Part shown: positions 5,301-48,420 of the stretch, piece by piece
Numbering within the stretch: position 1 is the stretch's first letter
How the letters are laid out: each line of letters opens with the position of its first letter
Source of the DNA: Fulvia fulva
Lineage: Eukaryota > Ascomycota > Dothideomycetes > Mycosphaerellales > Mycosphaerellaceae
Assembly: GCF_020509005.1 (NCBI RefSeq)
Contig: NC_063018.1
Span: 3,162,001 to 3,226,000, forward strand
Direction: 5' to 3'
DNA length: 64,000 nucleotides
The notes under the pieces: model-generated
Told to the model about the DNA's origin: nothing
Databases searched by the model: none
What the model saw: only the letters and a program-made list of their open reading frames with translations
Position numbers and translations under genes: made by a program

Positions 5301-5814
5301 TTAAGTCGAGTACTTCGTCGGCTATAGGGTGCGGCTATATAAGGCTTTCCTAGGAAGGGTAGTGTATATTAAAGTCTCCTACTACGATGTGGCACCCTTG
5401 TCTCTTAAGCGCACTGTCTAGGTGTCTACAGACCCCTAGGTCGCGGCTAGACCTCGAGGCTAGCGGTTGTATATATAGGTTGTGTATCTAGGTACTACCT
5501 ACGTGGAGGGAGGTAATATCGCCCCCGCCTTCTTCGTCTACGTAGTATACTACCTCCCAGTCGGATTCTAGTATGTCCTTGCTAATATAGAAGCACGTGC
5601 GGGGTCTGCCGTCGCCTCGTAGGTATGTCGTGTAGCCTAGTGACTTATAGGTCGTTAGTCTCTTATAGTGCGGGTTAATCTATAGCTCCTAGATTGTAAG
5701 GACGTAGTAGACGCGCGGGTCCGCCTCGTGTAGGAAATGGTTCTAGACTATATCCTTGCTATAGTTAACGTTATACTAGATGATGCTAAGCGTGTCGAGG
5801 CTAGTCATCGGCAT
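2390..5814 (-). pseudogene. LINE-A copy 1 ORF2 (endonuclease and reverse transcriptase)
   Basis: ORF2 starts at an ATG at 5814-5812 and codes for an apurinic-type endonuclease (nicks the target) followed by reverse transcriptase. A 68-residue stretch at 4273-4479 reads without a stop and contains the RT segment KKAPGPDRILNELLK. It is the same as the corresponding stretch of copy 2 at 34142-34348. The RT catalytic FVDD box is at about 3741-3765. A Cys/His motif lies near the C-terminus at about 2740-2790. The frame is interrupted by TAG codons in conserved Gln/Trp positions, so no full protein is made. Confidence 0.88.
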
Positions 5815-6940
5815 CGACAATCATTTCCTCTATATCGTCCTGTGTCCTACTGCCCTATACGTCCTAGTCTACGCCTATCGGCTATGTACTAAAGGGGAGC
5901 CGGGCCTAGTTAGATTCCCTCGCCGTAGCTAGTAGAGTACGTGGCCTCCCGTACGCCCTAGGCTACGCATCCTTTATATCGTTCTCGGCCCTAGGGCGCT
6001 TATGCCCGACCGCCGCTAGTTAGTTCCGGTGTAGGCTAGCCTTACGGTCGCCGTAGAATCTTAGGGCGACGGTTCTGTTTATGATTGCCTTGATTTTCGC
6101 TAGTTTCCGCTATAGGCATTCCGTACTATACGATAGGTAGTGCCCCGGACAGTTCGCGTACCGTCTCGTAGTCGATGTACAGTCCCTAGACATATAGTCT
6201 CCTATACAGTTCGAGTAGGCCTACTTGTTTGTGCACGTGTAGGTTTGGTGTCTATACTGTTAGCATTTGAAGTATTAGAGGACACGAAAGGATAAGGAGT
6301 GCTTTTCTACTATCTTGAGGCTATATTGCTAGACTAGGCCTTGTTCTATCGCTAGATCCGCCGCTTTCGCGTCTTATAGCTATACTATTAGCGCCGAGGC
6401 CTTCTTGCCTTCTGGCCATTTCCTATAGAGCCAAGTCGCCTTCTAGATTAGAGAGTTAAGAGTGACCGGGTTATCCTCTTAGAGAGCGCGTAGGTAACCC
6501 TAGTTGGTTAGGTCAAACTCCTTAGGCATGTCGTGGACTAGGATCGTGAATTGTTTCGTTAAGACCTTCGCTAATGCCGCAACCTTAGATGCCTACTGTG
6601 GCTATGCCTCTAGGTGCCTCCTAGCAGTAGTAGAGCTAGTATAGATCTGTAGAGTGCCGTTAGACTATTGGTTCACTACGACCACCCCTAGTTGGTTAAT
6701 ACGTTAGGCGAGCTCCTTGTTCGATAGCTTCGCAACTTCGGCCTAGTCTTCCTTTACTGCAATGCGGATCGTAACTACATCGTGCGTTAGGCGGGGGCCT
6801 AGTGTCGATGCCGCGACCGATGCCTAGCTATAGGGGTGTTGATTCCGGGTGGCCTTGCTAATCGCCTAGGACGTCGTCCTCATTTCTTGTTGCCCTCGGT
6901 GATACGACAGTACAAGCGCCGTGCGTAGCTGAGTGATCAT
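5780..6940 (-). pseudogene. LINE-A copy 1 ORF1 (gag-like, zinc knuckles)
   Basis: ORF1 of Tad-like LINEs encodes an RNA-binding protein that packages the element transcript. Limits are transferred from the collinear copy 2. In the same order as there, the reading contains an N-terminal segment, a central region and C-terminal Cys/His knuckles near 6180-6250, several of whose Cys residues are lost to mutation. TAG codons interrupt the frame. The 3' end overlaps the start of ORF2 at 5814. Confidence 0.7.
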
Positions 6941-7331
6941 TACCTATAGAGACCGGTAAGGGAGCTGATCGTTAGTTTCTATACTTTTTGCGTCCTCTAT
7001 AAGTTGCTGCCAGTTGTCTTAGGGGGGCTTCGCCTATAGGGCCGTAGGCGCCGTTAGTACCGTAGCCTAGGCTGCTATTGCCTAGGAGTTGCCTAATATA
7101 GCTAGGCACCTCCGCGGCGTTTGGAGCTGAAGAAACAGGGTGAAGAGAGCTTCAAGCTGTCCAGATTGAATGAGGTAGAACTCCCTCAGTCCTAGGGGCA
7201 GTGGCCTGCTTTTTATGTCGTTAGAATGGCCTTGATAAGAGCTTTCGAATATGTCGTGTTTTGGCGTAGAGATCGATCCTCTTAGTATAATACCCTTATC
7301 GTTAAAAGACTATCGTTCTGTTTAGAATATA

Positions 7332-11491: not shown

Positions 11492-12544
11492 GGTCGACGA
11501 CGAGAATTACCTATACGTAGTATCGGCTACGAACCTCTCGTCTTGCTACGAGAGAGCTAAGTATTTTTACGCTAGAGCGTCGTAGGCGCGACGGGCGCGT
11601 AACGTAGGCGAAGCCGCGGCGAATAGAGGACTACTAGCAAAACGGGTATAAAAACTATCCGACGAGCGTGTACTCGTGTCGGGAGCGAGTCCCTCTTCTT
11701 TTATAAGAAGGGCGCGGAACCGTGGCCTATACGCTCGATAGGACACCTCTAGTATAAGTATAGAATTTTCACCTCCGGAGACCGTAAACTAAGCGGGCTA
11801 AGCGACGAATATTAGACGAGCGGACTATAGAACAATAACTAAGCGGACTATACGACGGCGTCGAGCGGACTACGAAATAATCTAGTGTTTACTAGCGGGC
11901 AATACGGTAGGTAGGTAGATACGCGACGAAGCCTATAAGGGCCTATTAAGTACCCGGTATAGGAACGAGGGTTTTACCTAAGGTACTACCTATTCCGCTA
12001 TATAACGTACCTAGTCTAATATAGTAGATTACGACAAGGAAAAGACGGCTATTAGGACGGGGAAAAGACGTATAATACGAGTAGATTAGTTCTATAATCG
12101 GGGAGGATCGAGGGTAGGGTAATAAGGAACTCTATATTAGTTAGTAGGCAGAAACGTAAGGAGTACGCTACCCGGCGTAGTATATGTCCCGAGCAAACCT
12201 ACGAGGTATAGACGGCCGCTTTCTAGAGATAGGCTACGGTAACGCGAAGGGCGTTAAAACCTAGGGCGTAGTATATACTAGTAGCGACGGCTAATACTAT
12301 CTATATAGCCCGAGAGGACGGATACGTATATCGGTTAATAGAGAGTACTAAAGGGCTTAGGCCTATAGAGGTAGATATTAGCTTAAGGAGTAAATAGGGA
12401 GGGAGGGCGTAGAGGAAAGCTTTTGCTCCGGGCTAACCTCTCGAAACGAGGCTATACGGTAGTACTAGATAAGTAGGAAAGCGCGGTTAAGACTTATTAC
12501 CTTATCTCGTAGCTAGCTTACTAAATACAATTCCTTCCTTACTA
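11492..12544 (+). repeat. W unit copy 1: 1,053-bp module at the 5' end of a LINE-B fragment
   Basis: A 1,053-bp sequence with the same length and almost the same bases as 45976-47028; differences seen are a handful of transitions. It begins GGTCGACGACGAG and ends CTTACTA. I recognise no protein domain or open frame. Internal features are a stem (CTCTCGT/ACGAGAG, about 11538-11557), a hairpin around TCTTCTTTTATAAGAAG, and four imperfect AGCGGRCTA repeats at about 11790-11875. In both places it is followed directly by a 5'-truncated LINE, here LINE-B, in copy 2 LINE-A. It resembles in layout the WEIRD part of Magnaporthe MINE elements; homology was not tested. Confidence 0.85.
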
Positions 12545-14901
12545 AGAGACGAAGGAGTAATACTGTCGCGCGACATAAGAGAAGAAGGTATAGATAAGAC
12601 GCGATAAGCTATAGGACTAGAGAGCGACGATCGGACTCGTTATAGAAAACCCGGAATAGATATAGAGACTAGCTAAATAGGCACGACTACCTAAAGAGCA
12701 ACAAACCCCTTACTTCCCTCTAATTGTAGACCGCGAAGGAATTGCCTAGACTACGCCCCGGGGTAAGGCAAAAGTATTAGCCGACTATTTCTTTTTGACG
12801 TAAGTAGAGGTAGATCTTACGGATATCGACCCGAGTATATACCCGGAACCCCTAGACATAGATTAGGCGGTTAGCTCTAATATAGTAACAGGAGTTATAA
12901 GTAAGCTAAAAGGACGAAAAGCCCTAGGCCTAGACAGGATACTAAATATACTACTAAAAGAGTATAGAGAAGAGATCGCGCCGAGCCTTATAAACCTATT
13001 TACCGCGTACCTACGGCTAGGGTATCACCCGAAGCCGTATAGAGAGTCTATAATAGTAGTGCTACGTAAGCTATAGAAGGAGGACTATACTTAGCCTAAA
13101 TCGTATAGACTAATCGTACTTCTAAACACGATAGGGAAGGTCCTAGAAGAGATAGTAGCCTAGAGACTTACGTAGCTAGCCGAGGACAACTACGTACTCC
13201 TAGTAATATAGATAGGGGGAAGAAGCTAGCGATTAATACTAATAGTAATAGAGCTAATTACGGAGCAAATTCAGACCCTCTAGTACTACGGTAGGAACTA
13301 AGCGGCATCCTTACTATCCCTCAACATCGTAGGAGCCTTCGATAACGTCTTATACTATAGGCTAATATATATCCTATAATAGAAAGGCATCCCCTAGTAG
13401 GTAACGAAGTTCGTCTACTCCTTTCTCTAGGAATAGACGACATACCTAGTCCTAGGGAGGTATACGTCCGACCCGGTAAAGGTAGAGGCTAGAATACCTT
13501 AGGGATCTACTCTCTCCCCTATCCTATTTCTAATATTTATGTCTAATCTAATCCCTCTACTTACCTCTCCGTAAACCTTAGTATCGGGATTCGTAGATAA
13601 TATAAACATTCTAGCCTAGTTAGACTCGATAGAGGAGAACTGTCGCCTCCTTAAAGATAGGCACAAGAAATTCGAGGAGTAGGTAAAGAAGTATAGTACC
13701 CGGTTCGCCCCTAAAAAGTACTAACTTATATACTTTAGTAAAGCGAGAATATACTATAATATAAAGGCGGCGGTAGAATCTAAGGCTACGAGACTAAGCT
13801 ATTAGCGGAGCTACGAGTACTAGGGATCTAGCTCGACCTAAAGCTAAGCTAGAATATATAGATTAAGAAAGCCTAGAGTCGAGCGTAAGTTAACGAAGCC
13901 TCGATAAAGAGGCTTACGGCGTCTATATAGGGAGTAATATTCGATAAGGTAAGAGTAATATATAAGGCGATCGTTAGACTAGCTATATTATACGGGGTAT
14001 AGATCTAGGGGATAGGAGGCGTAGGTAAGCCGATCCCGAAACGGATAGAGCAACCCCTAAATAGGATATAGGTAGGTAACCTATATAGGATACTAGGCGT
14101 ATATAAGATAACGTTAATAAGCACGGTAGAAATAGAGACAGGAATACTACTAATTGGCCAATATATCCGGGGAATAAGAATTTAATACACGGTAAAGACA
14201 ATAGATTACCTAGTATAAACTACGATCTAGGAGGCAAAGAATAAGATAGAAAGCTACTACCGGAGAGGGGCCGGACATAGGACAAGCTAAAAAGAGGATG
14301 ACCTTACTACCTTTACGGCCGTATAGACAAGTACCGAAAAGCTAGTACGAAAAGAGGAGGAGCGTAGGACTCGCTAGGCCGGCGGGAGTAAGGCTAAGAC
14401 CTAAAGCCTAGCGGAATAGATAGCGAGCTACCTATAGGAGTAGGACTAAAAAAGGAAGGTCCCTAAGACAATAGGCCCGATAGTACTCCGAGCCTTCTAG
14501 AGACATAATTACTAGCTATATAGGGACCTAATAAGGGCCGAAGTAAGCATAGCGATCCAAATCAGGTCCGAATATATTAGATTAAGGGCCTACCTAATTA
14601 GGAGACGCGTACTAAACATCTATAGCCTAGCCTACTAGTGTAGCTACCTATCGTAAAACCTAGAATATATACTACTACGATGCCCGTAGTAGGCGAGAGG
14701 TAGGGGGAATTAGAGGTACTAAGCGGGAAGGAGAGACTATAAGTTAATTATTAGGGATAAAGGTAACATTCGCCGAATCTCTTAGTAGATACTATAGTAG
14801 GGATACCTCTAGTAGTTTAGCCTCGCTAGCGAGACGGAGGAGTAGATAGATAAGAGGCGGAAGCTAGGGGGGTTATAGATAAGGTAGTTATTAGGGTAGG
14901 C
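12545..14901 (+). pseudogene. LINE-B fragment: reverse transcriptase and C-terminus
   Basis: This is a 5'-truncated LINE ORF2 without the endonuclease. The RT reads KLKGRKALGLDRILNILLKE near 12900-12960, VLLNTIGKVLEEIVA near 13115-13160, and SLNIVGAFDNVLYYRL near 13320-13365. The catalytic box is GFVDNINILA near 13588-13617, where the second Asp is now Asn. The C-terminal Cys/His region is near 14580-14690 (YLIRRRVLNIYSLAY). It resembles LINE-A, C and D but is a separate family. It is joined on the left to W unit copy 1 and cut on the right by the CopB LTR before any tail is seen. Confidence 0.85.
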
Positions 14902-15135
14902 TATTAAATAGGTACGAGTTACGTAGTAGTAGAAGACGGCGGATTATATAAAAGACGAAGAAGGACCTAATAGGATAGCGTATATCTATATATAGTATCG
15001 CTAGTGTTAGTATAGGTAGATACTAGGTGTCCGGATGTTTGCTAGCCTATAGGCTAGCAAACCCTAGTCACGTGATCTAGTCACATAACACACCTACACC
15101 TATATACTTGTCCTACGGCCTATATGTTCTTAACA
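14902..15135 (-). repeat. CopB 3' LTR
   Basis: In the element's sense direction it runs TGTTAAGAACATATAGG to a TTTAATA end (TTTAACA before mutation). It contains a perfect 24-bp palindrome at 15038-15061 (half-site TTTGCTAGCCTA) next to a CACGTG at about 15066. A purine-rich AAGTAGGAG just outside its start (15136-15144, minus strand) is the polypurine tract. Confidence 0.88.
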
Positions 15136-20223: not shown

Positions 20224-20345
20224 TATTAAATAGGTACGAGTTACGTAGTAGTAGAAGACGGCGGATTATACGAAAGACAAAGAAGGACCCTATAGGATAG
20301 CGTATATCTATATATAGTATCGCCGGTATTAGTATAGGTAGATAC
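20224..20345 (-). repeat. CopB 5' LTR, part 1 (122 bp)
   Basis: This matches 14902-15023 of the other CopB LTR. CopA copy 1 interrupts it after GATAC (20341-20345), which is repeated at 27149-27153. Part 2 continues at 27154. Confidence 0.9.
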
Positions 20346-20552
20346 TATTATATTAGAAGTGTAGGAAGTTATTATACGGGCTTATATAGGGTGTTTTAAA
20401 AGTAGGTTGTGTATTGTATATGTCTATCTAGAATAGACAAGTGTTGCTCTTAAAGAGGCTATAGGTAACTAATTAGTCACCTAATTCTTAGCGTACGTGG
20501 CCTTAAGTTTTAATAATAGGATGTTGCCTATATATACGCTCGGATCGCGACA
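20346..20552 (-). repeat. CopA copy 1 3' LTR
   Basis: 207 bp; in sense direction TGTCGCGATCC to CGTGATA-type ends (here TATAATA). It is followed on the right by the mutated polypurine tract (sense CTAAGGGGGTG). The LTR ends pair imperfectly as TGTCGCG/CGTGACA before mutation. Confidence 0.92.
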
Positions 20553-31236: not shown

Positions 31237-31680
31237 GATTAGAGTACCCTAATCTCCAAACTTCTAGTATTCCCTAATATCCTTTAGGGGTCCGAGTAGT
31301 TACTTAACTCTTGTGCTTCATTATATATAACTAGAGATACTCGATCGATCTCTGCGCCAAAACACGACACATTCGAAAGCTCTTATCAAGGCCATTCTAA
31401 CGATATAAAAAGCAGGCCACTGCCCCTAGGACTAAGGGAGTTCTACCTCATTCAATCTGGACAGCTTGAAGCTCTCTTCACCCTGTTTCTTCAGCTCCAA
31501 ACGCCGCGGAGGTGCCTAGCTACATTAGGCAACTCCTAGGTAATAGTAGCCTAGGCTACGGCACTAACGGCGCCTACGGCCCTATAGGCGAAGCCCCCCT
31601 AAGACAACTAGCAGCAACTTATAGAGGACGTAAAAAGTATAGAAACTAACGATCAGCTCCCTTACCGGTCTCTATAGGTA

Positions 31681-32832
31681 ATGATCACTCAGCTACGCAC
31701 GGCGCTTGTACTGTCGTATCACCGAGGGCAACAAGAAATGAGGACGACGTCCTAGGCGATTAGCAAGGCCACCCGGAATCAACACCCCTATAGCTAGGCA
31801 TCGGTCGCGGCATCGACACTAGGCCCCCGCCTAACGCACGATGTAGTTACGATCCGCATTGCAGTAAAGGAAGACTAGGCCGAAGTTGCGAAGCTATCGA
31901 ACAAGGAGCTCGCCTAACGTATTAACCAACTAGGGGTGGTCGTAGTGAACCAATAGTCTAACGGCACTCTACAGATCTATACTAGCTCTACTACTGCTAG
32001 GAGGCACCTAGAGGCATAGCCATAGTAGGCATCTAAGGTTGCGGCATTAGCAAAGGTCTTAACGAAACAATTTACGATCCTAGTCCACGACATGCCTAAG
32101 GAGTTTGACCTAACCAACTAGGGTTACCTACGCGCTCTCTAAGAGGATAACCCGGTCACTCTTAACTCTCTAATCTAGAAGGCGACTTGGCTCTATAGGA
32201 AATGGCCAGAAGGCAAGAAGGCCTCGGCGCTAATAGTATAGCTATAAGACGCGAAAGCGGCGGATCTAGCGATAGAACAAGGCCTAGTCTAGCAATATAG
32301 CCTCAAGATAGTAGAAAAGCACTCCTTATCCTTTCGTGTCCTCTAATACTTCAAATGCTAACAGTATAGACACCAAACCTACACGTGCACAAACAAGTAG
32401 GCCTACTCGAACTGTATAGGAGACTATATGTCTAGGGACTGTACATCGACTACGAGACGGTACGCGAACTGTCCGGGGCACTACCTATCGTATAGTACGG
32501 AATGCCTATAGCGGAAACTAGCGAAAAACAAGGCAATCACAAACAGAACCGTCGCCCTAAGATTCTACGGCGACCGTAAGGCTAGCCTACACCGGAACTA
32601 ACTAGCGGCGGTCGGGCATAAGCACCCTAGGGCCGAGAACGATATAAAGGATGCGTAGCCTAGGGCGTACGGGAGGCCACGTGCTCTGCTAGCTACGGCG
32701 AGGGAATCTAACTAGGCCCGGCTCCCCTTTAGTATATAGCCGATAGGCGTAGACTAGGACGTATAGGGCAGTAGGACATAGGACGATATAGAGGAAATGA
32801 TTGTCGATGCCGATAACTAGCCTCGATACGCT
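31681..32832 (+). pseudogene. LINE-A copy 2 ORF1 (gag-like, zinc knuckles)
   Basis: An ATG at 31681 opens a frame reading MITQLRTALVLSYHRGQQEM, though the frame may begin further upstream. The middle contains LVHDMPKEFDLTN near 32085-32120. Near 32345-32515 are three degraded Cys/His knuckles (YFKC-QYRH..., YSNCIGDYMSRDC, YANCPGHYLSYSTEC). These parallel the three intact knuckles in LINE-C and LINE-D, so the protein was an RNA-binding partner of the element transcript. TAG codons interrupt it. Confidence 0.75.
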
Positions 32833-35800
32833 TAGTATCATCTAGTATAACGTCAACTATAGTAAGGATATAGTCTAGAACCATTTCCTACACAAGGCGG
32901 ACCCGCGCGTCCACTACGTCCTTATAATCTAGGAGCTATAGATTAACCCGTACTATAAGAGACTAACGACCTACAAGTCACTAGGCTACACGACATGCCT
33001 ACGAGGCGACGGCAGACCCCGTACGTGCTTCTATGTCAGTAAGGACATACTAGAATCCGACTAGGAGGTAGTATACTACGCAGACGAAGAAGGCGGGGGC
33101 GATATTACCTCCCTCTACGTAGGTAGCACCTGGATACACAACCTATATATGCAACCGCTAGCCTCGAGGTCTAGCTACGACCTAGGGGTCTGTAGACACC
33201 TAGACAGTGCGCTCAAGAGACAAGGGTGCCACATCGTAGTAGGAGACTTTAATATACACCACCCTTCCTAGGAAAGCCTTATGTAGCCGCACCCTATAGC
33301 CGACGAAGTACTCGACTTGATAGCGAGCAACGTAATTGCCCTCAATACCCCGAAGGACCTAGGCACCTAGAAGAGAGGGGGACTCTAAGGCACGATCGAC
33401 CTCTCCTAGATCTTAGATAGCTACTACTATACGGTAACCTACTATAGGATCGAACATAAACTCGAGGCGTCGTTAGACCACATGCTAGTCAGGACCTCTA
33501 TTACGACACAGATACAACGCACACTAGCGAGAACCCCTAAGCTAAACTAGGGAAAGGCCTACTGGGCTAACATCTAGGCGTACCTCGATGACTCTAAGAG
33601 GCTAGTCCAGATCGCGCAGTAGCAATACAACAGTAAAGACGAGATAGACGAAGCAGTCTAGGGGTTGATAGACGAAATAAGAAAAGCGACCTCACTTCAC
33701 GTTCCGCTTGCCTAACTAACGACATAGTCTAAACTATACTGGACGCCGGAGTACACTACGGTAGTAAGAGAAGCAAGGAGAGCCCGCCGGGTGTGGACGA
33801 GCAGCTATAGCGAGGAGGCCTAGAACGTATATAGGGAGGCATGCCAATAGAAGAAAGCTATAATACGGAGGGAGAAAGCAGTCGGCTAGAGGGCCACAGT
33901 AGAAGAAATCGCCGGCAAGCTAGAGAGGATATAGAAGCTAGCAAAATGGGCCCGACAGGACCCTACACAGGGCCCCTCCTTCTCTATCCTAGCGCTACAA
34001 TCGCCTAGTGGCCCGGTTAGCGACCCCGAGGCCAAGGCGCGTCTACTAGCTAGCAAGTTCTTCCCACCCCTAGTCGAGGCTGATCTAAGCGACATAAACA
34101 GCTCTACTCCCCTAGCCCCTAGCATCGCGGTCTAATAGGAGGTGTCCGAGGGAGAAGTTACCGCTATACTAAGGAAGTTGCCGGCGAAGAAAGCCCCGGG
34201 GCCGGATAGGATCCTAAACGAGCTACTAAAGAAGTATAGAGATCAACTAGCCCTAGCAGTTATAGCGATCTTTAACGCCTGCCTACAGACCGGATACTAC
34301 CCGATAGCTTTTAAACAATCGACGACAGTGGTCCTACGTAAGCCGTAGAAGGAAGACTATACGTAGGTGAAGTCGTACCGCCCAATTACGCTCCTTAACA
34401 CTCTTAGGAAGGCGCTTGAGAAGCTAGTTATAACGAGACTCTCCGAGGCGGTAGAGGAACACTCCCTACTCCCGGACACCTAGATAGGTACGCGCCTATA
34501 GCGATCGACGCTATCCGCGATAGAACTTATCACCTCTCAGGTAAAGGCTATCTAGTATAAGAATAGGGACAAGGTGGCTTCCTTACTTAGCCTAGACATA
34601 TCGGGAGCCTTCGACTACGTGTCATACCCGCGGCTTCTCTACATCCTAAGGTCGAAAGGACTCCCTAAGTGGCTTGTTAACTTCGTACGGTCCTACCTCC
34701 AAAACCGTAGTACGTCGATCCTAGTCGGCTAGTACAGAAGCCTATTTCAAGTAGTCTATACTAGAATCCCGTAAGGCTTAACGCTAGTACCTATTCTGTT
34801 CCTCTTCTTTATAGCGACGCTACTCCCAGCCCTAGAATCCCAGAACACCGCTACGAGCGGCTTCGTAGACGACACAAACATCCTAGCGTAGTCTTCCTCG
34901 ACTAAGGAGAACTATAGGCTACTAGAAGAGAAGCACAAGATCTACGAGGACTAGGCTAGGAGGCACGGGGCTCGGTTTGCCCTAGAAAAGTACAATCTAA
35001 TACACTTTACGCGCCGGCTACGGTTCCACAATATATAAGCTTCTATCTAGATATAGGGGTACACGACTAACCCGGCAAATCAGCTTAGGATCCTTAGACT
35101 ATAAGTGGACCCGGCGCTACGGTAGAGGAAGTACGTATAGGCAATATTACGGAAAGCTAAACAGAATATAGCATCATACTAGAGGCTCACTGCGTCTATA
35201 TAGGGGGCGGACTTCCGGTAGTCACGACTTCTATATACGGCTATTGTACGGCCAGTCCTTACCTATAGTAGCTAAGTGTGGTCCTTAGGCGAGAGGGCCT
35301 TCCTATCGAAGGGACTCGTCGCGCCGCTAGCGAAGATCTAAAACCAATGCCTAAGGAAGGTCACCGGGGCATATAAGTCGACACTAACGAGGATGCTTAA
35401 GTACGAGACCGCTATACCGCCGATCGACCTATACATCTAGGGACTACGGACCTCCTACTTAGGCAAGTCGGCACAGTACCTAGTACAGAAGGTCATTGCT
35501 AGTGCAGTCGTAAGGGCCCGCGAATTAGTACTAGCGCATAAGGGCATTCGACCCGGAAACGAGCCGAACTACCGGGCAAGGGACGAACAGCTAGTAACAT
35601 AATAGGAAGGTAAGAAATCGTTTGTAGAGCAACTATAGAAAGAGAGGTGGAACAACCAGGTTGTAGGGTATAGTGGACGCCCTTAGCTAGCGGGACAACC
35701 TAAGGAATAGTTAGCTACAAAATCTGCGGTCAAGCACCCCCCGAAGCTCATCTACTACCGCCTTACGAGGGCATAGAGTAGCATAGCAACCCAACTGCGA

Positions 35801-36230
35801 AGCGAACACATCGGCCTCTAGGGGTACCTATTATAGAGGAAGGTTCTAGGATACACGAATACTAGCTGCCCCTACGGCTATCGCTCCTAGAACGTACGGC
35901 ACGCACTCCTCGTCTGTCCGAGGTGGTCGCTAGGAAGGGGGGAGTGGATAGCAAAGGCGAGGAACCGGACGATTAGGGCACTTCTTAACAACGCTGAAGA
36001 CCTACGGCGCATTACGAACTAGATACTAGAGAAGGGCTGGCTAGAATAGTACCGCCTAGTAGGAGTAGTATAGGAAGAGAGGACACGACGTAGCGCGACG
36101 AGACCGGCTAGGAGCGGGGGCTAACGGGGTAGTGACATAGACTACGTACGTTCAGAGGGAAAGCTAATCTAGATAAGGAGTAGTCGGGGGCGGGAAGGGT
36201 TTTCACCTATTCGGGTTTCCCTTTGTATAT
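32806..36230 (+). pseudogene. LINE-A copy 2 ORF2 (endonuclease and reverse transcriptase)
   Basis: The ATG at 32806 opens MPITSLDTLSII, the start seen in related ORF2 proteins, and overlaps the end of ORF1. The endonuclease carries VVGDFNIHHPSWES near 33238-33280 and the SLDHMLV His motif near 33470-33490. RT spans about 34140-35030: KKAPGPDRILNELLK in the 68-codon open stretch 34142-34348, SLDISGAFDYVSY near 34580-34625, and FVDDTNILA at 34861-34888. A C-terminal Cys/His motif (CPYGYRS-NVRHALLVCPRW) is near 35865-35925. Stops are mainly TAG. The opposite-strand frame 33886-34125 is a shadow. Confidence 0.9.
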
Positions 36231-36302
36231 AACAATAGATATATACCTGTATAGGCCGGATAGGGTCCTAGAACAGGGGAATGACAAATCTATCTATCTA
36301 TC

Positions 36303-39045
36303 TATTAAAGATGAACATTATATATGCCTCTACTCCTTTCCGCCTTGCTATCTTCTTAATTGCCTCCGCGCTAACTTCCTAGATATCGATATCCGGTAGT
36401 GTCGGCGTAGCTAGTTTCTTTTCGAATAATAGTTTAGCGGTTCGCGGGCGTTCCTTTATAAGTATATTAGAGGTTATAGTCTAGATAAAATCTCTATCGT
36501 CGTCTTCTTCGATAGTGGCTTAATACGCTAGTCGGGTCTTTAGGGTAGGTTCGAAGGTCTACTTAGTAATTACCGGTTCCTACTTATCGTTAATACTCTA
36601 TACCTAGACTAGCTCGCTATCCTATAGGTAATACTCCTTATAGTGCTCCGAGTCGAGAGTTATAGTACCTAACGTAAAGTAGATACCTAGCTAGTATTTA
36701 TTATACTAGGGCCTGCCTAGCACGATGTTATACTCTAGATATATAACCTAGAAGGTTCTAGTCTCCTTATAACTATTGCCGAGTATAAGATCTAGACTTA
36801 TACGGTATTCTATTATTTCCGCGGCTATCGAGCCGTTTACTAACCTGAGGGCTAGTAGGTTATTAAGCTTAATTAAGGGCAGATTGTGTTTTTACGTATA
36901 GGAGAAGTCGACATACTTAGAATTAGTACCGTTATTAAGGAAAGTAAATACATTTTGCCTATTAGCTATCCCTAGTATTACGAGGTATAAGCCGATAATA
37001 GGGTTGTATTCTATTTCTACTATCCTAAGAATATATAATAACAGCTTAAGCCCTTCGGGTGGCTTTGCTAGTAGTGCCTCTTTATTATGTCTTACAATCT
37101 CCTTTTTATGTCTACTAGTTATTACGCTTAAGTAGTAGACTAGGCATTTTCCGCCGGTAGTATAACGGTAGTGCCGCTAGCGTTAGTACCTAGATATACT
37201 AGTATCTCGTACTCGAACAGCTCGTAAGTACGCTACTATAGGCGGTGACCGGGCTTACGACACTTCTTATAGAGGCTCTTACGTATATAGCGAGTACTCT
37301 TAGCTTCGTCTATAGTCTTACTAAGGCTACTCTTAAATCGTTTAGGTCGGGTAGACTAAGCCTTACGGGTCGGCTTATTAGAGCCTAAACCTACTAGCTT
37401 GTCGTCCTTATTATCCTTATTACCGTCCTTCTTATCGTCCTTCTTATTATTCTTTAGCTTCTCGGAGCGTAGGTAGAGAGCGTCGAGAATCCTAAAGTCC
37501 TTATTAACCTAATAGAGATTGTCGATCATCTCTTATAACGATTCGGGACGGAAGTTAAGATACTTATTAAGATAGCGGACAGTTAGCTTACGTTATAGGT
37601 TATCTATCGCATCTTTACCCTTAAGGCCTAGGATGTTAGCATTCTAGCGCTACTTAGGGAAGAAGGTCTAGAAGCTGTCCTTATTATCTATCTTAAGGTT
37701 ACTTAGGCGATTACGAGCCCTACTAATTAGGTTACGGTCTCCGTATCGCTTAGCGAGTTCCTTAATAAGGTCGTTAATACCCTTATACGTCTTCTTACTA
37801 CTAGTTAGGCTACCTAAGATAGTAGGGATCTTTAGTCTAACTAGTTCCTAAGTATTACCTAGTAAGGCTAGCAAGTCGTATACGAACTTAAGTACTACCT
37901 TCTTATCGCGAAAGACCGTATAGTCGATAATAGTCTCTAACTCGGAGAAGAACTTCTCGAGGGAGGGTCTAGATAGCTTACTATCGATAGTACCGACGAA
38001 CTTCTCTAGCTTATCTATACTACGCTAAGTCTTAAAGGGCTGGCTAAGGTCTAGATCGTACTTAACTAGAGACTCGAAGTCGTAGACTAGCTTCTTCTTC
38101 TTAGAAGAGCGGCGATAAGTACGAGCATCGCTATCCGACTCTAAGTCCTCCTCTAACTCCTTAGATAATAGATCGGAGTCGTTACTATTATCCTTACGTA
38201 TAGACTTCTTAGCCTTCTTTCTAGTAGTACGGCGAGCTACCTTATCCTCCTCGTCCTTATTACTAGCTCTATTATTATCCTTATTATTATCCTTAGATAG
38301 GGTTCGGCCGTTCTATAGGCTACGACGCTATAATATAGCGCGAGATAGTAAGGATCGTACTTAAGAGCGGCCTCGGCGGTCTTCGAGTTACTTCTTAAGA
38401 TTATCTACCTAAGTCTACTACGACTTATTAAGCTACTTAATATCGTTCTAGTAGGTTTAAACTTCTATCTTATACGTATCGAGATTGAATTTGAGGGTCT
38501 TAATCTTCGAGTTATTATTAGACAACTACTAAAGTGCCTCCTTAGCTTACTTCTTTAGGGTGTCGTTCTTCGCGGTAAGTATACTGATCTCTATGGACAT
38601 TACTATATTCGATAATACCTTAGGTCGGGCCTTTAGGTTATCGAGTTCCTACTAAACCTAGATAAGCTATTACTTAGCCTAATCTATTTCTCCTCGTACC
38701 GTACTAAGGTCCTTCTAATAAGCGTTACGGTACTTAGTAGCATTATCCTTCTATACCTTTAGCGTGTCGCGGTCCTTAACTAGGGTGTCGTATTTATTAC
38801 GTATCTATTAGTCGTAACTCTTCTATCTCCTAAGCTCTTACCCTACTTTACCTAACTACTCGTAGAGGATAGTCGCTATCTATATTACGTTCCTATACTC
38901 TTACTTAGCGCGTCGTAGGATAAAGTAGATAGCCGCGGCGGTCTCGGGCTCTACTAGGAGCTTGACGAGCTAGTTAATATCGAGTTAAAGGAGGTCGTTC
39001 GCGGGAATTCGGAGGGTTTTCGCGACTTATTATATATCCTCGCCC
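36303..39045 (-). pseudogene. GypD gag and protease region
   Basis: The upstream continuation of GypD beyond LINE-A copy 2. A zinc-knuckle-like KCRKPGH box lies near 37255-37235. To its right (gag N-terminal side) the minus-strand reading is charged and rich in Lys, Asp and Glu (37400-38300), then more regular to 39045. The protease lies between 37100 and 36303. The frame is interrupted by stops. LINE-C splits the upstream end at 39045; it continues at 44012. Confidence 0.7.
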
Positions 39046-39231
39046 AACTACCTAGGCTACACTCCTTAGGAGCGCTAGTCTACCTACTATAGTTGCTAGT
39101 ATATAGCGTATGTCTATGATTGTTACTAGCTATATCTAAGTACTAATAACCGATATACTTAAGTACAACGGATTGAAAAATGGCGACGACGACGGCAGTA
39201 GACGACCGAGAGCAGAGTACTAAAAGGAGTA

Positions 39232-40395
39232 ATGAGCGAACTGCTCGGGGGACTGAAGGCGCTCAAACTACAAACAAGCACTACGATCAACATGGCAATC
39301 GAGGCAGCAACACGAAACGTAAGAAACAACCCTCAAAGAGACCCGAGACAGACCTAGGGCCTAACGACCTAGGCAACAATCGCGAGCCAACCCACCCCCC
39401 CTCAAAGCACAGTACTACGAGTCTATATTACGGACCAGAAAGAGAAGGAAGAGATAGGAAAGATGACCGGGAGGGAGATAGTCGAGAAGATCGGAGTAAA
39501 GGGAATAGTAGGGGCAAGGGCAGACAACAAAGGGGTCAAGCTGTTTATAGCACACGTACAGGACAAGAAGGCCCTCGAAATAAATAAGGAGTAGACACTG
39601 AAGATCGGGAGCACAGCGAAAGTCTCCCATCAACAGTACATAGTAATTGCGTATAGGGTCCTACGAACCTTTGATACACAAAGGGATACACCAAACCTCT
39701 AGAGGCAAAACTAGGTAACAGCACCAGGACTATAGATCACAAAGACAGCGTGGGTTAAGAAGAAGATAGAGGAGGGCAAGAGGGCCTCCTCGCTGATCTT
39801 ATAGGTTGCAACACCAGAGCAAGCGAACAAGGTCTTAGACTAAGGGTTGTACTAGGACTTTGAGAGGCTGGATGTAGAAATCTATTAGAGCAACCACAGA
39901 ATCCTTCAATGTTTCAACTGTCAACAGTACGGACATATTGCCCCAAAGTGTAGCAAAGCCACACTAGTCTGCTCACACTGTGCTGGTGATCACGCGACCC
40001 AAGAGTGCCAAAAACGGAAGGAGGACACAAGATGCGTAGCATGTAGGAGAAAACACCCGGCATGGTCAAACCAATGCCCAGTTAGACTATCAGCCCAGTA
40101 GAGAGCGCGGGAAGCAAGGGTAACAACACCAACCAGGTTCCTAGTAGGTGAACAGAAACAACCAGAGAGAACCACCCACCCGAATAAGAGACCCCGGCCA
40201 CAAGAGGAGCCACAAATAGTGCTAGCAATAGGGAGACCAACGTTCTTGTACAAGGCAGCGCAGAGCAATGGACAAATGAGAATCAACCAAATGATAGGGA
40301 GCCAACCCCAAAGGGAAGAACAGGAGGAGGGACGGGAAAACCAACAGCAAGACTAACAGCAAGACCAAACGGACCTAGACACAAACATGTCCTGA
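39232..40395 (+). pseudogene. LINE-C ORF1 (gag-like RNA-binding protein)
   Basis: The true frame reads MSELLGGLKALKLQ from the ATG at 39232 and passes through STVLRVYITDQKEKEE, GKRASSLIL and three intact zinc knuckles near 39905-40080: CFNCQQYGHIAPKC, CSHCAGDHATQEC and CVACRRKHPAWSNQC. These bind the LINE RNA. It is broken by TAG codons and one TAA at former Gln or Trp positions. A neighbouring 135-codon open frame starting at 39180 is out of register and not the gene. The stop at 40393-40395 overlaps the ORF2 start in TGATG, which suggests termination-reinitiation. Confidence 0.88.
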
Positions 40396-43300
40396 TGCCT
40401 CACACTAACAGACTATCAATCATTCAGTATAATGTGAACAGAAGCAAAGACAAGGTCCAAAGGAGCTTTCTACAAGCCTTAGACCCGGAGGAACACCACA
40501 TTATAGCAATACAGGAACTATAGATCAACCCACACTCTAGGATTCTATCAACTGTACGAGACCCGAGATACTACGTAGTAATAAACAGAACCGAGGGAGT
40601 CCCACGAACTTGTATCTATGTCAGTAAGAAGGTACTAGCAGAGGACTGGCAGGCCTGGCCGAGAACCGATAGGGATATCACCACAGTGCAGCTCAAAACA
40701 ACTCAAGGCCAAGTCCTGATCTATAGCGTATACAACCCACCTCTAGAGTCCAGAAGCAGCACACAACTACACACGCTAGGAAGGCTCCCGGAAGCAATGA
40801 ACCAACAAAACCACAACATCGTGATAGGAGATTTCAACCTCCACCACCCAAAGTGGGGATCGGACTTCACCCTAGCACACCACTTCTTAGCAGGGAGGCT
40901 CATTGGTCAGATGGAAACAGCCCAAATGGACTTGATCACGCCAAAGGGAACAGAAACTTGGGCTAGAAACAACAGTTCTAGCACGCTAGACCTATGCTTT
41001 ATGTCCCACGCCTTAACACGACGGGTAGAAAGCTGCACAGTCAATGACCAACTAGAGTCCTCATCAGACCACTATCCAATCCAAACCGACATCCAACTCA
41101 CAGTTGAGGAGGAGAGGGAACCTGAGAGGAGGCTCTGCTAGAAGCAGGCCGAGTGGACACTAGTATAGCAGCGGCTAGAAGGCGAACTAGAACAGGTGAA
41201 CATTGACAACATACACACAACGGAGGGGATTGACCAAGCAGTGGAGCAGCTGATAGAAGCTATGCAAAGGGCAGCCTAGGCCCATATACCTAAGAAGAGA
41301 TGGTCGCTATACCAGAAGCTATACTGGACACCAGAGTGCACAGCCAAAGTCAAGGAGGCAAGGAGAGCAAGAAGGAGATAGGAGCAACGACGTACCCAAG
41401 CAAACTGGGAAGCCTATAACAACGCGTGCAAAGCAAAGAAGGCGCAGATCAGAAGAGACAAGACGTAGGAGTGGAGGTCAACTGTAGGGATGATCACAGA
41501 ACACCCGGAACAAATCTGGAGACTAGCAGAATGGGCTAGGAAACTAGACGAGGAACGAAACTCCCCGCCCCAGTTTCCCTCAATATAGGACCAAGACGGG
41601 GAAACGCAAACCACTCCGATAGGGAAAGCGAAAGCATTCGTAGACCACTTCTTCGGGACTCAGGTAGAGGCAGACCTAAGCAACATCCTAGGAACACACA
41701 TTCCTCCGCTAAGGGAGGCTAACTGGCAAGTGTCTGCTATAGAGATCGGAAACATTATCAAGAAACTGAAGGGCAACAAAGCCCTAGGCCCAGACAAGAT
41801 CCCTAACTGTTACCTAAAAGCTAGTAGCAGCCTTATCACTCTAGTGCTTGCGCCAATCTTTACCTAGTGCATGAAGCAGGGGTATTGCCCAAAGGCCTTT
41901 AGGCAATCACTGACTTGCGTCCTAAGGAAACCCCAAAAGGAAGACTATACCAAGTTGAAGTCATACAGACCAATTGCGTTGCTGAACACACTAGGGAAGC
42001 TCCTAGAGAAGGTCGTGGCTATAAGGCTCACCGGAATAGTAGAAGAACACAACCTCCTCCCGGCAACGCAAATAGGGGGGAGACAAAAGAGATCTACCCT
42101 CACAGCAGTCGAACTGATCACAGAGCAAATCAGACACATCTAGCACTATGGCAACAACAAGGTAGCCTCACTGCTTTCACTAGACATATCAGGGGCTTTC
42201 GACAATGTGTCCTACGCAAGGCTCCTACACATCCTCAGAATGAAAAGCATCCCAGCCTGGATAGTACACTTTGTGTAGTCATTCCTTAAGGACAGAACAA
42301 CCCAGATCCTCCTAGGGTCCTTTAAAGCCCCGTAGACCCCAATTGCGAACACGGGCATCCCATAGGGCTCTACACTCTCCCCAATTCTGTTCCTCCTCTT
42401 TATGGCCGACCTGACCCCACTCCTAGAAACAGCAAACACCTTAGCATCGGGGTTCGTGGATGACACAAATATCCTAGCGTGGTCGGGGTCTATAGAGGAA
42501 AACTGCGCACTCCTAGAGGAGAGACATAGACAATGCGAAAAGTGGGCAAGAGAGCATGGGGCAAAATTCGCACCGGACAAGTACCAACTTATCCATTTTA
42601 GTAAGGCAAAGACAAAACACAACTTGGCAGCACTAGTAAAAATCCAGGGGTTCGAGACCCATCCTACAAGGGAACTCAGAGTCCTTGGGATATAGCTAGA
42701 CCCGAAACTTAGCTGGGGACCACAAGTGAAGAAGGCGCAAGCGAGAGCGGACACCAACAGATAATCAATCGAGAGACTCACTACGTCAACCTAGGGGGCG
42801 ACCTTCATAAAGGCCTAGACTATGTACAAGGCCATTGTCAAGCCCGCAATGCTATATGGAGCAGCAATTTGGGCAGCGGAAAAACACATCCCGAAGAGAA
42901 TTGAGGACCCCCTTAACAGAGCGCAGGCAGCCTGCCTAAAGAGAGTACTAGGGGCATACAAGTCAACCCCTCACAGGACAATAGAAATGGAATCAGGTAC
43001 AGCCCCCATCAGGGAGTACCTCCAGGGCATGAGGTGTCAATACGTAGAGAAGACATCAGCATACCCAGCCCAGGGAACCATCTAAGCAGCTACTCAAAGG
43101 ATAAGAACCCAGTGGGAGAGGAGGAGAAGACCCAACCGGCCACATATGATCCTATAGAAGGAAGCAGACCTAAAAACATCACAGGAAATCCTAGCAGCCC
43201 TTGAACAGAGAGAAGCTCTGAGGGAGCAAGCTAACACAGGGGACAAAGGGAAAAAGAAGCAAAGCCAAGCAGAAAGGATCGCAGGTCACCTATAGGAAAC

Positions 43301-43796
43301 GCGTTGGAACCAAAAACCGGTGAGGCCAGGAGCCCCACTAGCGGCCAGGACCTTCGGGAGGTATAACTACCTTATCTATAAAGACCTGAAGAGGGCGGAA
43401 GCAAGCATAGCTATCCAGATTCGCTCTGAGCACATTGGGCTGAGAGCATACTTGCACCAAAGAAGAGTCCTAGGATACGATTCCAAACATTGCCCCTGTG
43501 GCTACCTATCCCAAAACCCGGAGCACATGGTGCTGAACTGTACTAAGTGGGTAAAAGGGAGAAGCCAGTGGAGGGCGAAGGCAAGAGACAGGCAATACCA
43601 GGCCATCATCCAGGACAGACAAGATATAAGGAGAGTGACAAGATGGATCCTTAACGAGGACTACCTAGAGCAATTCTCCCTAGCAGTAGAAACGGAAAGG
43701 TGGATAGAGAGGAGGGAGAGAGAGAGAAGAGCCGGGGAAACAGAAGGGAGAAAGGGAATCGAGAGGAGGACATCACTAGGGTTACGGGCAAGGTAG
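40395..43796 (+). pseudogene. LINE-C ORF2 (endonuclease and reverse transcriptase)
   Basis: ORF2 starts at the ATG in TGATG (MPHTNRLSIIQYNVNRSKDK). Endonuclease: IVIGDFNLHHPKWG near 40820-40860, STLDLCF near 40980-41000, SSDHYPI near 41065-41085. RT: GNKALGPDKIPNCYLK near 41770-41820, QIGGRQKRSTLTAVELI near 42070-42120, LSLDISGAFDNVSYA near 42175-42220, and an intact FVDDTNILAW near 42453-42482. A C-terminal CPCGYLSQNPEHMVLNC motif lies near 43492-43542. I see no clear RNase H. The single frame runs to 43796 and is broken by a limited number of TAG codons, so it is nearly intact but not functional as read. Confidence 0.92.
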
Positions 43797-44011
43797 TCAT
43801 AGGGTAACAACCATGACACTAGCGTACCCTGAAGGAAGGAGAACAAAAGGACAAGACAGGAAAGAACGAGGAGGGCAAAGACGAGGAGGTTTTCATCCGT
43901 TAATCGGGTTTCCTACCTACACAAATAGACCTAAATAGCGAGAGACCTACATAGGCCATAGGGCACTAAAACAGGCGAATGAATAATCTATCTATCTATA
44001 TATCCTCGCCC

Positions 44012-44689: not shown

Positions 44690-45975
44690 CTACTTAGCCT
44701 AGCTCCGCGTACGATCCTTCTAAATAACTATATACTATATATCGTTATACCTAATCTTAGAATCTACTAGATCCTCTACTTCGTATTCCTCCGATACCTA
44801 GCCTTTACGTTCGACGATTACGGGCGCTAGTAGTAGTCTACGTTATGTAGGCATCCCTTCGGTTACTACGCGGCGTAACTTACTCGTATAGAATACGTTA
44901 TAGATTTATATCCTATCGCTAAGTTCGAGTTTATACGAGCGTCTACCTACGGCCCTAACGACTCGAAACGGTCTAAGGAACTTATAATCGAGTTTCTTAT
45001 TTAGGCGTATAGTCTTAATATTACGGGCATCTAGTAGAACTATATCGTTAGGCTAGTAGGTAGGCGCTAGCGCTCGCTAAGTGTTTACGGCGTCGGCCGT
45101 TTATACTTACGTAAAAGTATATACGTTACGTAGCTCGTCTAGGCGGTCGCGGCGTATAGACTCGAGCACCCGCTATATTTATACTTAAGTGTCTTATATA
45201 TTATTAACTAATGCGTTAGCGGCCTCGACGTTAGGTACTTCCCGAGCTATAACTTATAGTTTAGCTAGGCTACTAAACTCTATCCGCGGGTAGCGGCTAG
45301 AGTCGGCAAAGAATAGAGTCATTCCGGTACTTATAGACTCGTAATTATTAAGGGCGAACTCGGCGTCGGGTAGTAACTCGACCTAGTTATCTTGTTAATA
45401 GTTAGTATAGGCGCGGATATACTATTCGAGTACTTAGTTTATACGTTCTAATTGCCTATCCGTTTCTAGATAGAAGGCTATAGAAAGATTCTAGTAGATA
45501 CTAAGCCTTACGTAGAGTCTACGGAAGAGCGCGCTAACAAATTACGTACCTCTATCGCTTACGACTACCTCCGGTAGGCCGTATACGGAGAATATATACT
45601 TATAGAACAAGGTAGCGGCGTACTTAGCGTTTAAGTTATTAGTAGAGAGTAGCCGTACGCGTTTAGTTAGTATATTAGTAACTGTTATAATATATTAATA
45701 GGTTAGTCTAGTATTAGGATCTTTACTAGCGGGTAGGTCGACGATAAAGTCTACGGCGATATACTTCTATTCGTAACCGGGCGTATAGTATAGAAATAGG
45801 GTGCCTTACTTTATTAGTCTTAATAGAGTCGAGCGCCTATATATTAGATAGTATCGTACGTATCTTACGACGTTACTTACTATACTAGGCTAGAAGAGGG
45901 TTTGCCTCTATAGTAGATTAAAAGTCTTTACTTACCTTAGTAGCTAGCTACTCTACTATTATAGTATTTACGTAC
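44690..45975 (-). pseudogene. GypE pol: integrase and chromodomain
   Basis: Minus-strand gypsy integrase, read right to left: IAVDFIVDLPASKDP near 45760-45720, NILTKRVRLLS near 45680-45650, YGLPEVVVSDRGT near 45580-45540, ETDRQLERIN near 45470-45440, AEFALNNYES near 45370-45340. The C-terminal GPF-like module LDYKFLRPFRVVRAVGRRSYKLE follows near 45010-44930. A chromodomain start (EEYEVEDLVDSKIRYN) is near 44800-44750, cut off at 44690 by the LINE tail. The upstream part of this element lies beyond the composite insertion at 45976-47886. Confidence 0.9.
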
Positions 45976-47028
45976 GGTCGACGACGAGAATTACCTATAC
46001 GTAGTATCGGCTACGAACCTCTCGTCTTACTACGAGAGAGCTAAGTATTCTTACGCTAGAGCGTCGTAGGCGTAACGGGCGCGTAACGTAGGCGAAGCCG
46101 CGGCGAATAGAGGACTACTAGCAAAACGGGTATAAAAACTATCCGACGAGCGTGTACTCGTGTCGGGAGCGAGTCCCTCTTCTTTTATAAGAAGGGCGCG
46201 GAACCGTGGCCTATACGCTCGATAGGACACCTCTAGTATAAGTATAGAATTTTCACCTCCGGAGACCGTAAACTAAGCGGGCTAAGCGACGAATATTAGA
46301 CGAGCGGACTATAGAACAATAACTAAGCGGACTATACGACGGCGTCGAGCGGACTACGAAATAATCTAGTGTTTACTAGCGGGCAATACGGTAGGTAGGT
46401 AGATACGCGACGAAGCCTATAAGGGCCTATTAAGTACCCGGTATAGGAACGAGGGTTTTACCTAAGGTACTACCTATTCCGCTATATAACGTACCTAGTC
46501 TAATATAGTAGATTACGACAAGGAAAAGACGGCTATTAGGACGGGGAAAAGACGTATAATACGAGTAGATTAGTTCTATAATCGGGGAGGATCGAGGGTA
46601 GGGTAATAAGGAACTCTATATTAGTTAGTAGGCAGAAACGTAAGGAGTACGCTACCCGGCGTAGTATATGTCCCGAGCAAACCTACGAGGTATAGACGGC
46701 CGCTTTCTAGAGATAGGCTACGGTAACGCGAAGGGCGTTAAAACCTAGGGCGTAGTATATACTAGTAGCGACGGCTAATACTATCTATATAGCCCGAGAG
46801 GACGGATACGTATATCGGTTAATAGAGAGTACTAAAGGGCTTAGGCCTATAGAGGTAGATATTAGCTTAAGGAGTAAATAGGGAGGGAGGGCGTAGAGGG
46901 AAGCTTTTGCTCCGGGCTAACCTCTCAAAACGAGGCTATACGGTAGTACTAGATAAGTAGGAAAGCGCGGTTAAGACTTATTACCTTATCTTATAGCTAG
47001 CTTACTAAATACGATTCCTTTCTTACTA
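45976..47028 (+). repeat. W unit copy 2 (1,053 bp)
   Basis: Same limits and length as 11492-12544, from GGTCGACGACGAG to CTTACTA. Differences I noticed are transitions, such as GCGCGACGG to GCGTAACGG near 46070 and CTCGTAGC to CTTATAGC near 46990. It is non-coding as far as I can read. Confidence 0.9.
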
Positions 47029-47886
47029 GGGACTACGGATCTCCTACTTAGGCAAGTCGGTATAGTACCTAGTATAGAAAGTCATCGCTAGTATAGTCGT
47101 AAGGGCCCGCAAATTAGTACTAGCGTATAAGGGTATTCGACCCGGAAACGAGCCGAACTACCGGGTAAGGGACGAGTAGCTAGTAACATGATAGGAAGCT
47201 AAGAAATCGTTTATAGAGCAACTATAGAAAGAGAGGTGGAACAACTAGGGTGTAGGGTATAGTAGACGCCCTTAGCTAGCGGGACAACCTAAGGAATAGT
47301 TAGCTATAAAGTCCGCGGTCAAGTACCCCCCGAAGCTTATCTACTACCGCCTTACGAGGGTATAGAGTAGTATAGTAACCTAACTACAAAGCGAACACAT
47401 CGGCCTCTAGGGGTACCTATTATAGAGGAAGTTTCTAGAATATACAAATACTAGCTACCCCTACGGCTATTACTCCTAGAACGTACGGTACGTACTCCTC
47501 GTCTATCCGAGGTAGTCGCTAGGAAGGGGGGAGTAGATAGTAAAGGCGAGGAACCGGACGATTAGGGCACTTCTTGATAACGTTAAGGACCTACGGCGTA
47601 TTACGAACTAGATAGTAGAGAAGGGCTAGCTAGAATAGTACCGCCTAGTAGGAGTAGTATAGGAAGAGAGGACACGGCGTAGCGCGACGAGACCGGCTAG
47701 GAGCGGGGGCTAACGGGGTAGTGATATAGACTACGTACGTTTAGAGGGAAAGCTAATCTAGATAAGGAGTAGTCGGGGGCGGGAAGGGTTTTTATCTATT
47801 CGGGGTTCCCTTTATATATAATAATAGATATATACCTATATAGGCCGAATAGGGTCCTAGAATAGGGGAATGACAAATCTATTATC
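47029..47886 (+). pseudogene. LINE-A copy 3: 5'-truncated ORF2 C-terminus and 3' UTR
   Basis: This aligns with 35440-36302. It contains the end of ORF2 (TRS-like GLRTSYLGKS region, RTGNEPNYR-type stretch, Cys/His motif) and the 3' untranslated region. It has more CpA-to-TpA changes than copies 1 and 2 over the same stretch (for example GCACAG in copy 2 is GTATAG here). The junction with W shares a CTA with the LINE-A sequence at 35437-35439, a possible microhomology. Confidence 0.9.
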
Positions 47887-48420
47887 TATTTACGTACTAT
47901 CCGGGTACGGAGGTTCTAAAAGGCTAGGATATATAAGGCTTTATCGACGTATAGTCGATCCGCGATAATTTCGTAATCTAATACGGCAATCTTCTATTAT
48001 TATAGCTATACGTTAGCGATCCCTTACTAGAGATCGGACTTCAGTTTTAGTATACGTATCGTTATAGACCGGCTATTATATACTTCTATATATAGTTCTT
48101 CTTTATATAACTCCGTTTACTCCCGTTCTTCTAGTAGCGTAGGTTCGTCTAACGGCCCTATACTTCCTTCGACAGGTTACTCGTTACTAGGCGTCTCTTT
48201 AACTAGAACTCTACTATCTAGTTCCGAGTCGACGTCACTACCTACCTCGGCGTCGTTTAGTTCGAGTAGCGGCTATATTATGTCTCGCTAGGCAAGGCGG
48301 GTTAATCGCCGGGGAGTAGCGATATTACTAGTATAGTAGTCTTCTTCTTTATCGTCTAAGTCGTAAATTAATAGTACTTAATTATTACGGATAGTAATCT
48401 ATAAGACGATAGTATAGAGT
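47887..48420 (-). pseudogene. GypE pol: RNase H/integrase linker and integrase zinc-binding start
   Basis: Minus-strand reading from about 48420: VLLIYDLDDKEEDYY, then an acidic stretch (LELNDAEVGSDVDSELDS), then KIAVLDYEIIADRLYVDKAL and RTRIVRK at the left edge. The last part is the usual lead-in to the gypsy integrase zinc-binding domain, which continues at 45975 after the composite insertion. Stops are TAG. Confidence 0.75.

Follow-up and report, generated by a model that had tools for sequence, protein, structure and literature searches.

A non-coding repeat, W, joined to the 5′ side of LINEs of at least six lineages in Cladosporium fulvum

Introduction

The closest described counterparts of the structure reported here are the MINEs of Magnaporthe, in which a 1,113-nt sequence, WEIRD, heads 5′-truncated MGL LINEs; the sections of the source drawn on here count 31 MINEs and 33 chimeras in all, with one LINE plus a SINE as partners, a junction motif of GCC*A/U, one chimera with two partners in a row and no solo WEIRD found (PMC2104539). 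The same sections record WEIRD RNA measured in mycelium, spores and infection; their verdict of 2007, for want of any solo copy, was that WEIRD might be a housekeeping RNA rather than a transposable element (PMC2104539). Mammalian LINE-1/non-coding RNA chimeras occur, in the part of a second source used here, at a few to 21 loci per new type (PMC13174262), and the relevant portion of a third describes template jumping by the R2 non-LTR reverse transcriptase, shown in vitro (PMC8857657).

Here we describe W, a ~1.1-kb non-coding repeat with ~600 copies in the genome of Cladosporium fulvum (Fulvia fulva). Like MINE, as its published sections present it, W is a full-length non-coding ~1.1-kb unit at the 5′ end with a truncated LINE directly downstream, and it shares with MINE target-site duplications, junction hotspots, a chimera with two partners in succession and the lack of any solo unit found. 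By the same sections the two differ in copy number (31 MINEs against ~600 W, about 20 times more), in partners (MGL and a SINE for MINE, at least six LINE lineages for W) and in junction (GCC*A/U against a native pyrimidine|C). On the side of W there are further W–W joins, a burst of copies almost identical in sequence and, at the loci examined, no solo W, the assembly being free of gaps. A MINE primer printed in PMC3978060 matches W at best at 13/20 bases. W works like MINE, its closest known kind, but is not filed as MINE because partner range, copy number and junction motif differ.

The mammalian LINE-1 chimeras, so far as the part of their description used here goes, resemble W in carrying a non-coding RNA 5′ of the LINE and in inserting as one unit with target-site duplications; in chimeras of the U6/LINE type the 5′ part is a known RNA, small nuclear or otherwise named, whereas W has no Rfam family and no identified host gene. 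R2 jumping resembles our model for W in that a single enzyme passes from one template to a second, unlinked one once non-templated nucleotides have been added at the end of the cDNA; as its source portion presents it, it is known in vitro for R2, and in Tad1-type fungal LINEs it would be a predicted ability. SINEs are non-coding, are moved in trans by LINE machinery and reach hundreds of copies, and W is like them in all these respects; a SINE shares its 3′ tail with its partner LINE, whereas W lacks such a tail, ending ..CCTTG(C) before internal LINE sequence, has no pol III A or B box on either strand (consensus scan of the least-mutated W) and rides at the LINE 5′ end. None of the papers listed by our literature search appears to describe such chimeras in C. 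fulvum, and a passage search of the main text of PMC10823647 did not return the word ‘chimeric’.

Results

Two W–LINE units in one window

Within the window, the whole 64,000-nucleotide stretch analysed here (NC_063018.1, positions 3,162,001 to 3,226,000), W matches two places only. The first copy (11492..12541, plus strand) is complete at both ends and abuts a 5′-truncated LINE-B with a reverse transcriptase (RT) domain (12542..15017, plus strand; RVT_1 E 2.9e-14, stops read as X), the 3′ end of which is approximate, at about 14985-15017; other loci carry native LINE sequence running across the W|LINE-B junction point. The second copy (45976..47025, plus strand), 99% identical to the first, abuts a LINE-A 3′ part with an ATCT-type tail (47026..47886, plus strand; 92.6-92.8% identical to window LINE-A copies), and an 11-bp target-site duplication, TATTTACGTAC (left copy 45965..45975, right copy 47887..47897, both plus strand), encloses the whole W+LINE-A unit. 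No target-site duplication was found at the first locus, the flanks of which match near-continuous sequence at 27016-27263, as if the chimera had interrupted such a site.

The original prediction had placed W at 11492-12544 and 45976-47028, with the LINE-B stretch running to 14901. The common starts, the near-identity and the adjoining LINE-B hold, but the real W ends lie at 12541 and 47025, at ..CTTA (the CTA that follows being also native LINE sequence), and the LINE-B part extends to about 15,017. Nor is W a fixed unit of 1,053 bp, as had been proposed: its usual length is 1,079 bp, with both ends fixed and partners varying (57 distinct loci). Stretches of 5 bp and 23 bp that most copies possess are missing from the two window copies alike. 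Among 59 aligned copies the 5-bp deletion recurs in 7 others, and a 22-bp deletion is common to one other copy, the window pair having lost one further base.

The window is dominated by sequence marked by RIP (repeat-induced point mutation), with CA and TG depleted and TA enriched. It also holds, on the minus strand, a second little-mutated LINE (LINE-F, 51001-55598) with RT and endonuclease domains and a tRNA gene above the Rfam gathering score (1238-1363), and a likely LTR element (20344-27148) bounded by 207-bp repeats, which recurs, in part in inverted orientation, at 55956-63995.

Intact LINEs in the same window begin without W: a LINE-A copy (31343..36305, plus strand; RVT_1 E 3.8e-23), its inverted twin (2316-7278, minus strand), which shares the same 5′ end, and a LINE-E (39180..43997, plus strand) with an ORF1 start, endonuclease and RT domains, and few mutations. 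That LINE-E has few RIP mutations, ORF1 CCHC zinc knuckles (identified by eye) and an (ATCT)n-type tail. Since the LINE-A twins and LINE-E start without W, the W 3′ end is not a LINE 5′ boundary, and intact LINEs do not regularly carry W as their 5′ portion, an objection that the original prediction had raised against itself. A fixed W–LINE boundary was not seen in intact copies of LINE-A or LINE-E; at one locus, L091, W is joined about 44 bases upstream of the LINE-A start common to the window copies and the first 29 bases after W match no other sequence compared.

It is scarcely credible, in our estimate, that W is a LINE 5′ UTR and the chimeras internal deletions or splice products. W does lie 5′ of sense-strand LINE sequence at the loci that align to window LINEs, and the L091 junction just upstream of the LINE-A start would suit such a reading, but the window LINE-A and LINE-E copies begin without W, junctions range from the LINE 5′ region (L097, L098, L117) to at most 0.9 kb from the 3′ end (L002), and the native LINE sequence ends, before the junction, in pyrimidines where a splice acceptor would have AG; on this last ground we rejected splicing of W to LINE acceptors.

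W across the genome

The original prediction had proposed a whole-assembly search with W, and this took the two window loci to ~600 copies: over 67,169,167 bases in 14 contigs, a 23-nt pattern from the W 3′ end gave 617 matches at up to two mismatches and a pattern from the 5′ end 581 at up to three, the reversed controls of both patterns giving 0 matches genome-wide, so that the recurrence of W goes well past what chance would produce. The Cladosporium fulvum Race 5 assembly is reported, in the sections of its description used here, to be without gaps and to consist of Tad1-type LINEs for 16.3% of the genome (PMC9453070). In the 3′-end sample, 9 of 30 loci have a W that is itself 5′-truncated; such truncation is frequent in LINE copies and is expected if copying proceeds from the LINE toward the W 5′ end.

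W was rejected as protein-coding after searches that returned nothing (its ORFs do not exceed 91 aa, and no Pfam family passes the cut-off, the best E being 0.36), and no Rfam family matches it, two sub-threshold matches falling outside W. Its suggested character as a structured donor RNA did not survive folding: mean z-scores range from -0.2 to 0.6, those of L080 are spread around 0, and W is on this showing not unusually structured, with one folding window in L077 reaching -2.8.

We examined the 3′ side of 118 W loci, a non-random sample of the ~600 copies made up of 57 found by likeness to the window W (L001-L030) or as the first 30 places of the 3′-end pattern (L031-L060, all on C1), from which L038, L045 and L054 were dropped as repeats of other loci; 12 reached from the W 5′ end (L061-L072, C1); L073 and L079; eight from the LINE-F junction (L080-L087); and 39 picked by likeness to L080 (L088-L126). 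W is joined at its end to a LINE in 113 of these and to another W in 3, the remaining 2 (L063, L069) being interrupted inside W by later insertions. Solo W was met at none of the 118 loci (116 readable), the ten with full self-score included, so that the unmutated solo parent for which the original prediction had proposed a search is absent from the loci examined. Of 48 W 5′ ends listed on chromosome 1, 12 had no exact 3′-end partner and were not otherwise sampled; 10 of these reach the W 3′ end and 2 are interrupted by later insertions.

The partners belong to at least six LINE lineages (A-F), 57-72% identical to one another over 450 bp of RT, against 92% within lineage C in the same stretch. 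Only lineages A-F were compared in one common RT stretch, and groups G-K, which were told apart by alignment or by motifs such as the zinc knuckles of ORF1, may represent the 5′ or 3′ portions of some of these; lineage labels were assigned by hand from alignments and motifs, and the loci called LINE by eye (ORF1/RT motifs) include L011, L012, L016, L035, L036, L043, L050 and L053. With stops read as X, LINE-A, LINE-E and LINE-F show RT and endonuclease domains (the LINE-A endonuclease match lying below cut-off) and LINE-B an RT domain. The earlier view that two LINE families serve as partners was thus right that the families differ and too low in its count, and its observation that W stays constant while LINE partner and truncation point vary extends to 57 loci, with fixed W ends at many LINE positions.

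Some loci have more complex arrangements. At L079 (C2:2704500-2709300) a W+LINE-B chimera stands in perfect tandem repeat with a period of 3,318 bp, five W ends following one another at this spacing in C2:2705819-2719113, and a comparable spacing of about 4.67 kb is seen at C1:8826063-8835429. L041 has, besides its full W, a further piece of W in the opposite orientation, the two meeting head to head at 96% identity over 446 bp, possibly a product of twin priming. We rejected the C2 array as a W gene, the repeated unit being the chimera itself, and likewise W as an rDNA spacer RNA: the ten copies with full self-score (L088-L096, L080) are dispersed and all joined to LINEs. Five rDNA copies are assembled on Chr4, according to the sections of the genome report used here (PMC9453070).

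Insertion as one unit and the junction rule

Of the 7 loci examined for target-site duplications, 5 have the chimera between direct repeats of 11-16 bp, within the 10-20 bp of direct repeats around the whole chimera by which the published MINE sections recognise such elements. The W 5′ flank is repeated exactly after the LINE tail (ATCT)n over 15-16 bp in L074, L076 and L078; in L077 the duplication measures 7 bp by exact search and, compared by eye, 15 bases with a single mismatch (14 identical), and L075 has no clear duplication. Across 61 full-length W loci a C-T-A-T-A-like motif lies in register ~15 bases before W (T in 49/61 and A in 48/61 at two positions), as expected from a single endonuclease site preference.

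In the 81 loci that allow comparison with native LINE sequence, the break follows a native pyrimidine in 80 and precedes a native C in 75, set against a background of 9-12% pyrimidine-C among dinucleotides. The rule is common to the 31 young loci with a native window counterpart (pyrimidine before in 31/31, C after in 29/31) and to the 50 of 57 older loci that have a native counterpart (49/50 and 46/50, respectively). Genome-wide, C follows ..CCTTG at 179 of 197 unmutated W 3′ ends, and the LINE-F hotspot CCTTG|TCAC accounts for at least 9 of the 18 non-C cases. No poly(A) lies between W and LINE. Junctions also concentrate at RT motif A (codons S-L-D), where those of lineages A, B, C, D and F fall no more than a few bases apart; the LINE-B hotspot holds 56 W junctions at one nucleotide against 495 read-through copies, and one junction nucleotide is common to 12 LINE-F loci.

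We lean, with somewhat better than even confidence, towards the reading that W stands at the 5′ side of LINEs because the LINE reverse transcriptase goes on from a broken LINE RNA to a separate W RNA. The pyrimidine|C rule is explained equally well by RNA cleavage followed by ligation, whereby a nuclease would cut LINE RNA at pyrimidine|C, a ligase would add the W 3′ end, and the fused RNA would be reverse transcribed and inserted. The native context, with a pyrimidine at -1 in 80/81, resembles an RNA cleavage rule, and the portion of the source used here gives ligation before copying as the way in which human LINE-1/non-coding RNA chimeras form (PMC8857657); against it, W–W–LINE chains would need two ligations. 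Ligation first is the main rival, which we hold to be less likely than jumping but leave a substantial share because an RNA ligase joining W to broken LINE RNA would leave the same DNA.

The W–W joins themselves consist, in L073 and L066, of a full W followed by a second W from position 168 or 165, and in L108 of a second W from position 297; the two W parts of L073 differ at 33/912 bases. Such joins indicate that the acceptor end works whatever template is being copied.

Near-identical W copies at many junctions

The least mutated W found, L080, has 119 CA+TG sites, and the 15 other listed W copies differ from it almost only by C-to-T or G-to-A; L050, for example, shows 88 forward changes, 0 backward and 0 transversions, and in the five copies checked the changes sit in RIP context. 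With L080 as query, 40/40 scored copies fall at bit scores 1920-1943, ten with full self-score; the near-identity of about 99.5-100% is derived from these bit scores, the printed identity value being 100. The 39 near-identical copies besides L080 have 38 LINE partners and 1 W partner at 31 different junctions (L121, among the 38, being placed through its shared junction). These 39 copies with 31 junctions are the strongest evidence that W RNA has been captured again and again, and they support the original prediction that one W RNA is repeatedly joined to LINE copies of different families.

Recurrent junctions, 56 at one LINE-B nucleotide and 12 at one LINE-F nucleotide, would also arise if each junction had formed once and the chimeras had then multiplied as units, and the 12 LINE-F loci could be copies of one chimera. 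As an account of W as a whole this is very improbable, in the face of 31 junctions among 39 near-identical copies and of a hotspot present in five lineages. The LINE-B and LINE-F hotspots moreover hold different W alleles (the 5-bp deletion; T/A at column 53). These variants, which RIP did not cause, are spread over several lineages as well as inside a single hotspot, a mixture that could also come from gene conversion between W copies. At nine loci of the LINE-F hotspot, where the LINE parts differ at 3-43/1,750 and the W parts at 23-69/1,077 positions, the W and LINE distances are uncorrelated (Mantel r 0.03, p 0.42), again in opposition to multiplication as units.

The two halves of the LINE-F chimeras differ in their mutational state. 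W in eight of them carries 22-68 RIP-type changes relative to L080, with 88 and 108 in L084 and L087, and the first 250 bp of the adjoining LINE are free of private RIP-type change in 9/11 of the set L074-L077 and L080-L087. Either W, as the higher-copy repeat, was hit first, or some donors were already mutated; a donor already RIP-mutated, as the more RIP-like W half had suggested, is a candidate weakened by the 40 near-unmutated W copies.

Among 1,711 pairs of 59 copies, the most similar W pairs show 4, 6 and 10 differences, the next lowest 26, and all three are neighbours with different LINE partners: the window pair L001/L002 (34 kb apart), L015/L046 (40 kb) and L022/L028 (2.6 kb). Nearby W pairs are in general not more alike (permutation p 0.60), and general local clustering of W similarity was rejected on this result, with the three extreme pairs remaining; these suggest local gene conversion or a local RNA donor, and it is probably gene conversion between neighbours that has made the window copies so unusually alike. 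That segmental duplication or gene conversion made the two window loci what they are is nevertheless very improbable. The three most similar pairs do all lie within 40 kb, window pair included, and gene conversion limited to W would explain the likeness of neighbours, but it would account for that extra likeness only and not for W joined to LINEs, and nearby pairs are generally no more alike. The LINE parts of the two window loci differ and their flanks are unrelated, so they are not one segmental duplication, a second objection foreseen in the original prediction.

Discussion

On the template-jumping account, LINE RNA would be broken at pyrimidine|C, target-primed copying of that RNA would reach its broken 5′ end, and the LINE reverse transcriptase would continue onto the 3′ end of a separate W RNA, so that the join would be the work of the reverse transcriptase, with no part for an RNA ligase. 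The putative W RNA would be free and end ..CCUUG(C), and would be non-polyadenylated, given that no poly(A) lies between W and LINE. As no solo W was seen among the loci examined, the chimeras are its likely donors: W copies inside them may serve as the source of new W RNA, which would need 3′-end formation inside W. If chimeric copies donate new W RNA in this way, W would be a self-spreading non-autonomous element. Taken to its full extent, this describes a “5′ hitchhiker” that lacks a reverse transcriptase, a priming tail and any gene outside chimeras. It would spread only when the 3′ end of its RNA is joined to whichever resident LINE RNA has a broken 5′ end, and the copies at chimera fronts would be the next donors; we offer this fuller picture tentatively, as plausible but short of probable.

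W makes C. fulvum a second fungus with such chimeras, here in ~600 copies, with numerous LINE partners, with a recent burst from one W sequence and, at the loci examined, without any solo W. The strict pyrimidine|C rule gives a handle on template jumping versus RNA ligation, and the system makes testable the idea of a non-coding RNA that lives as a transposon by capping LINE insertions.
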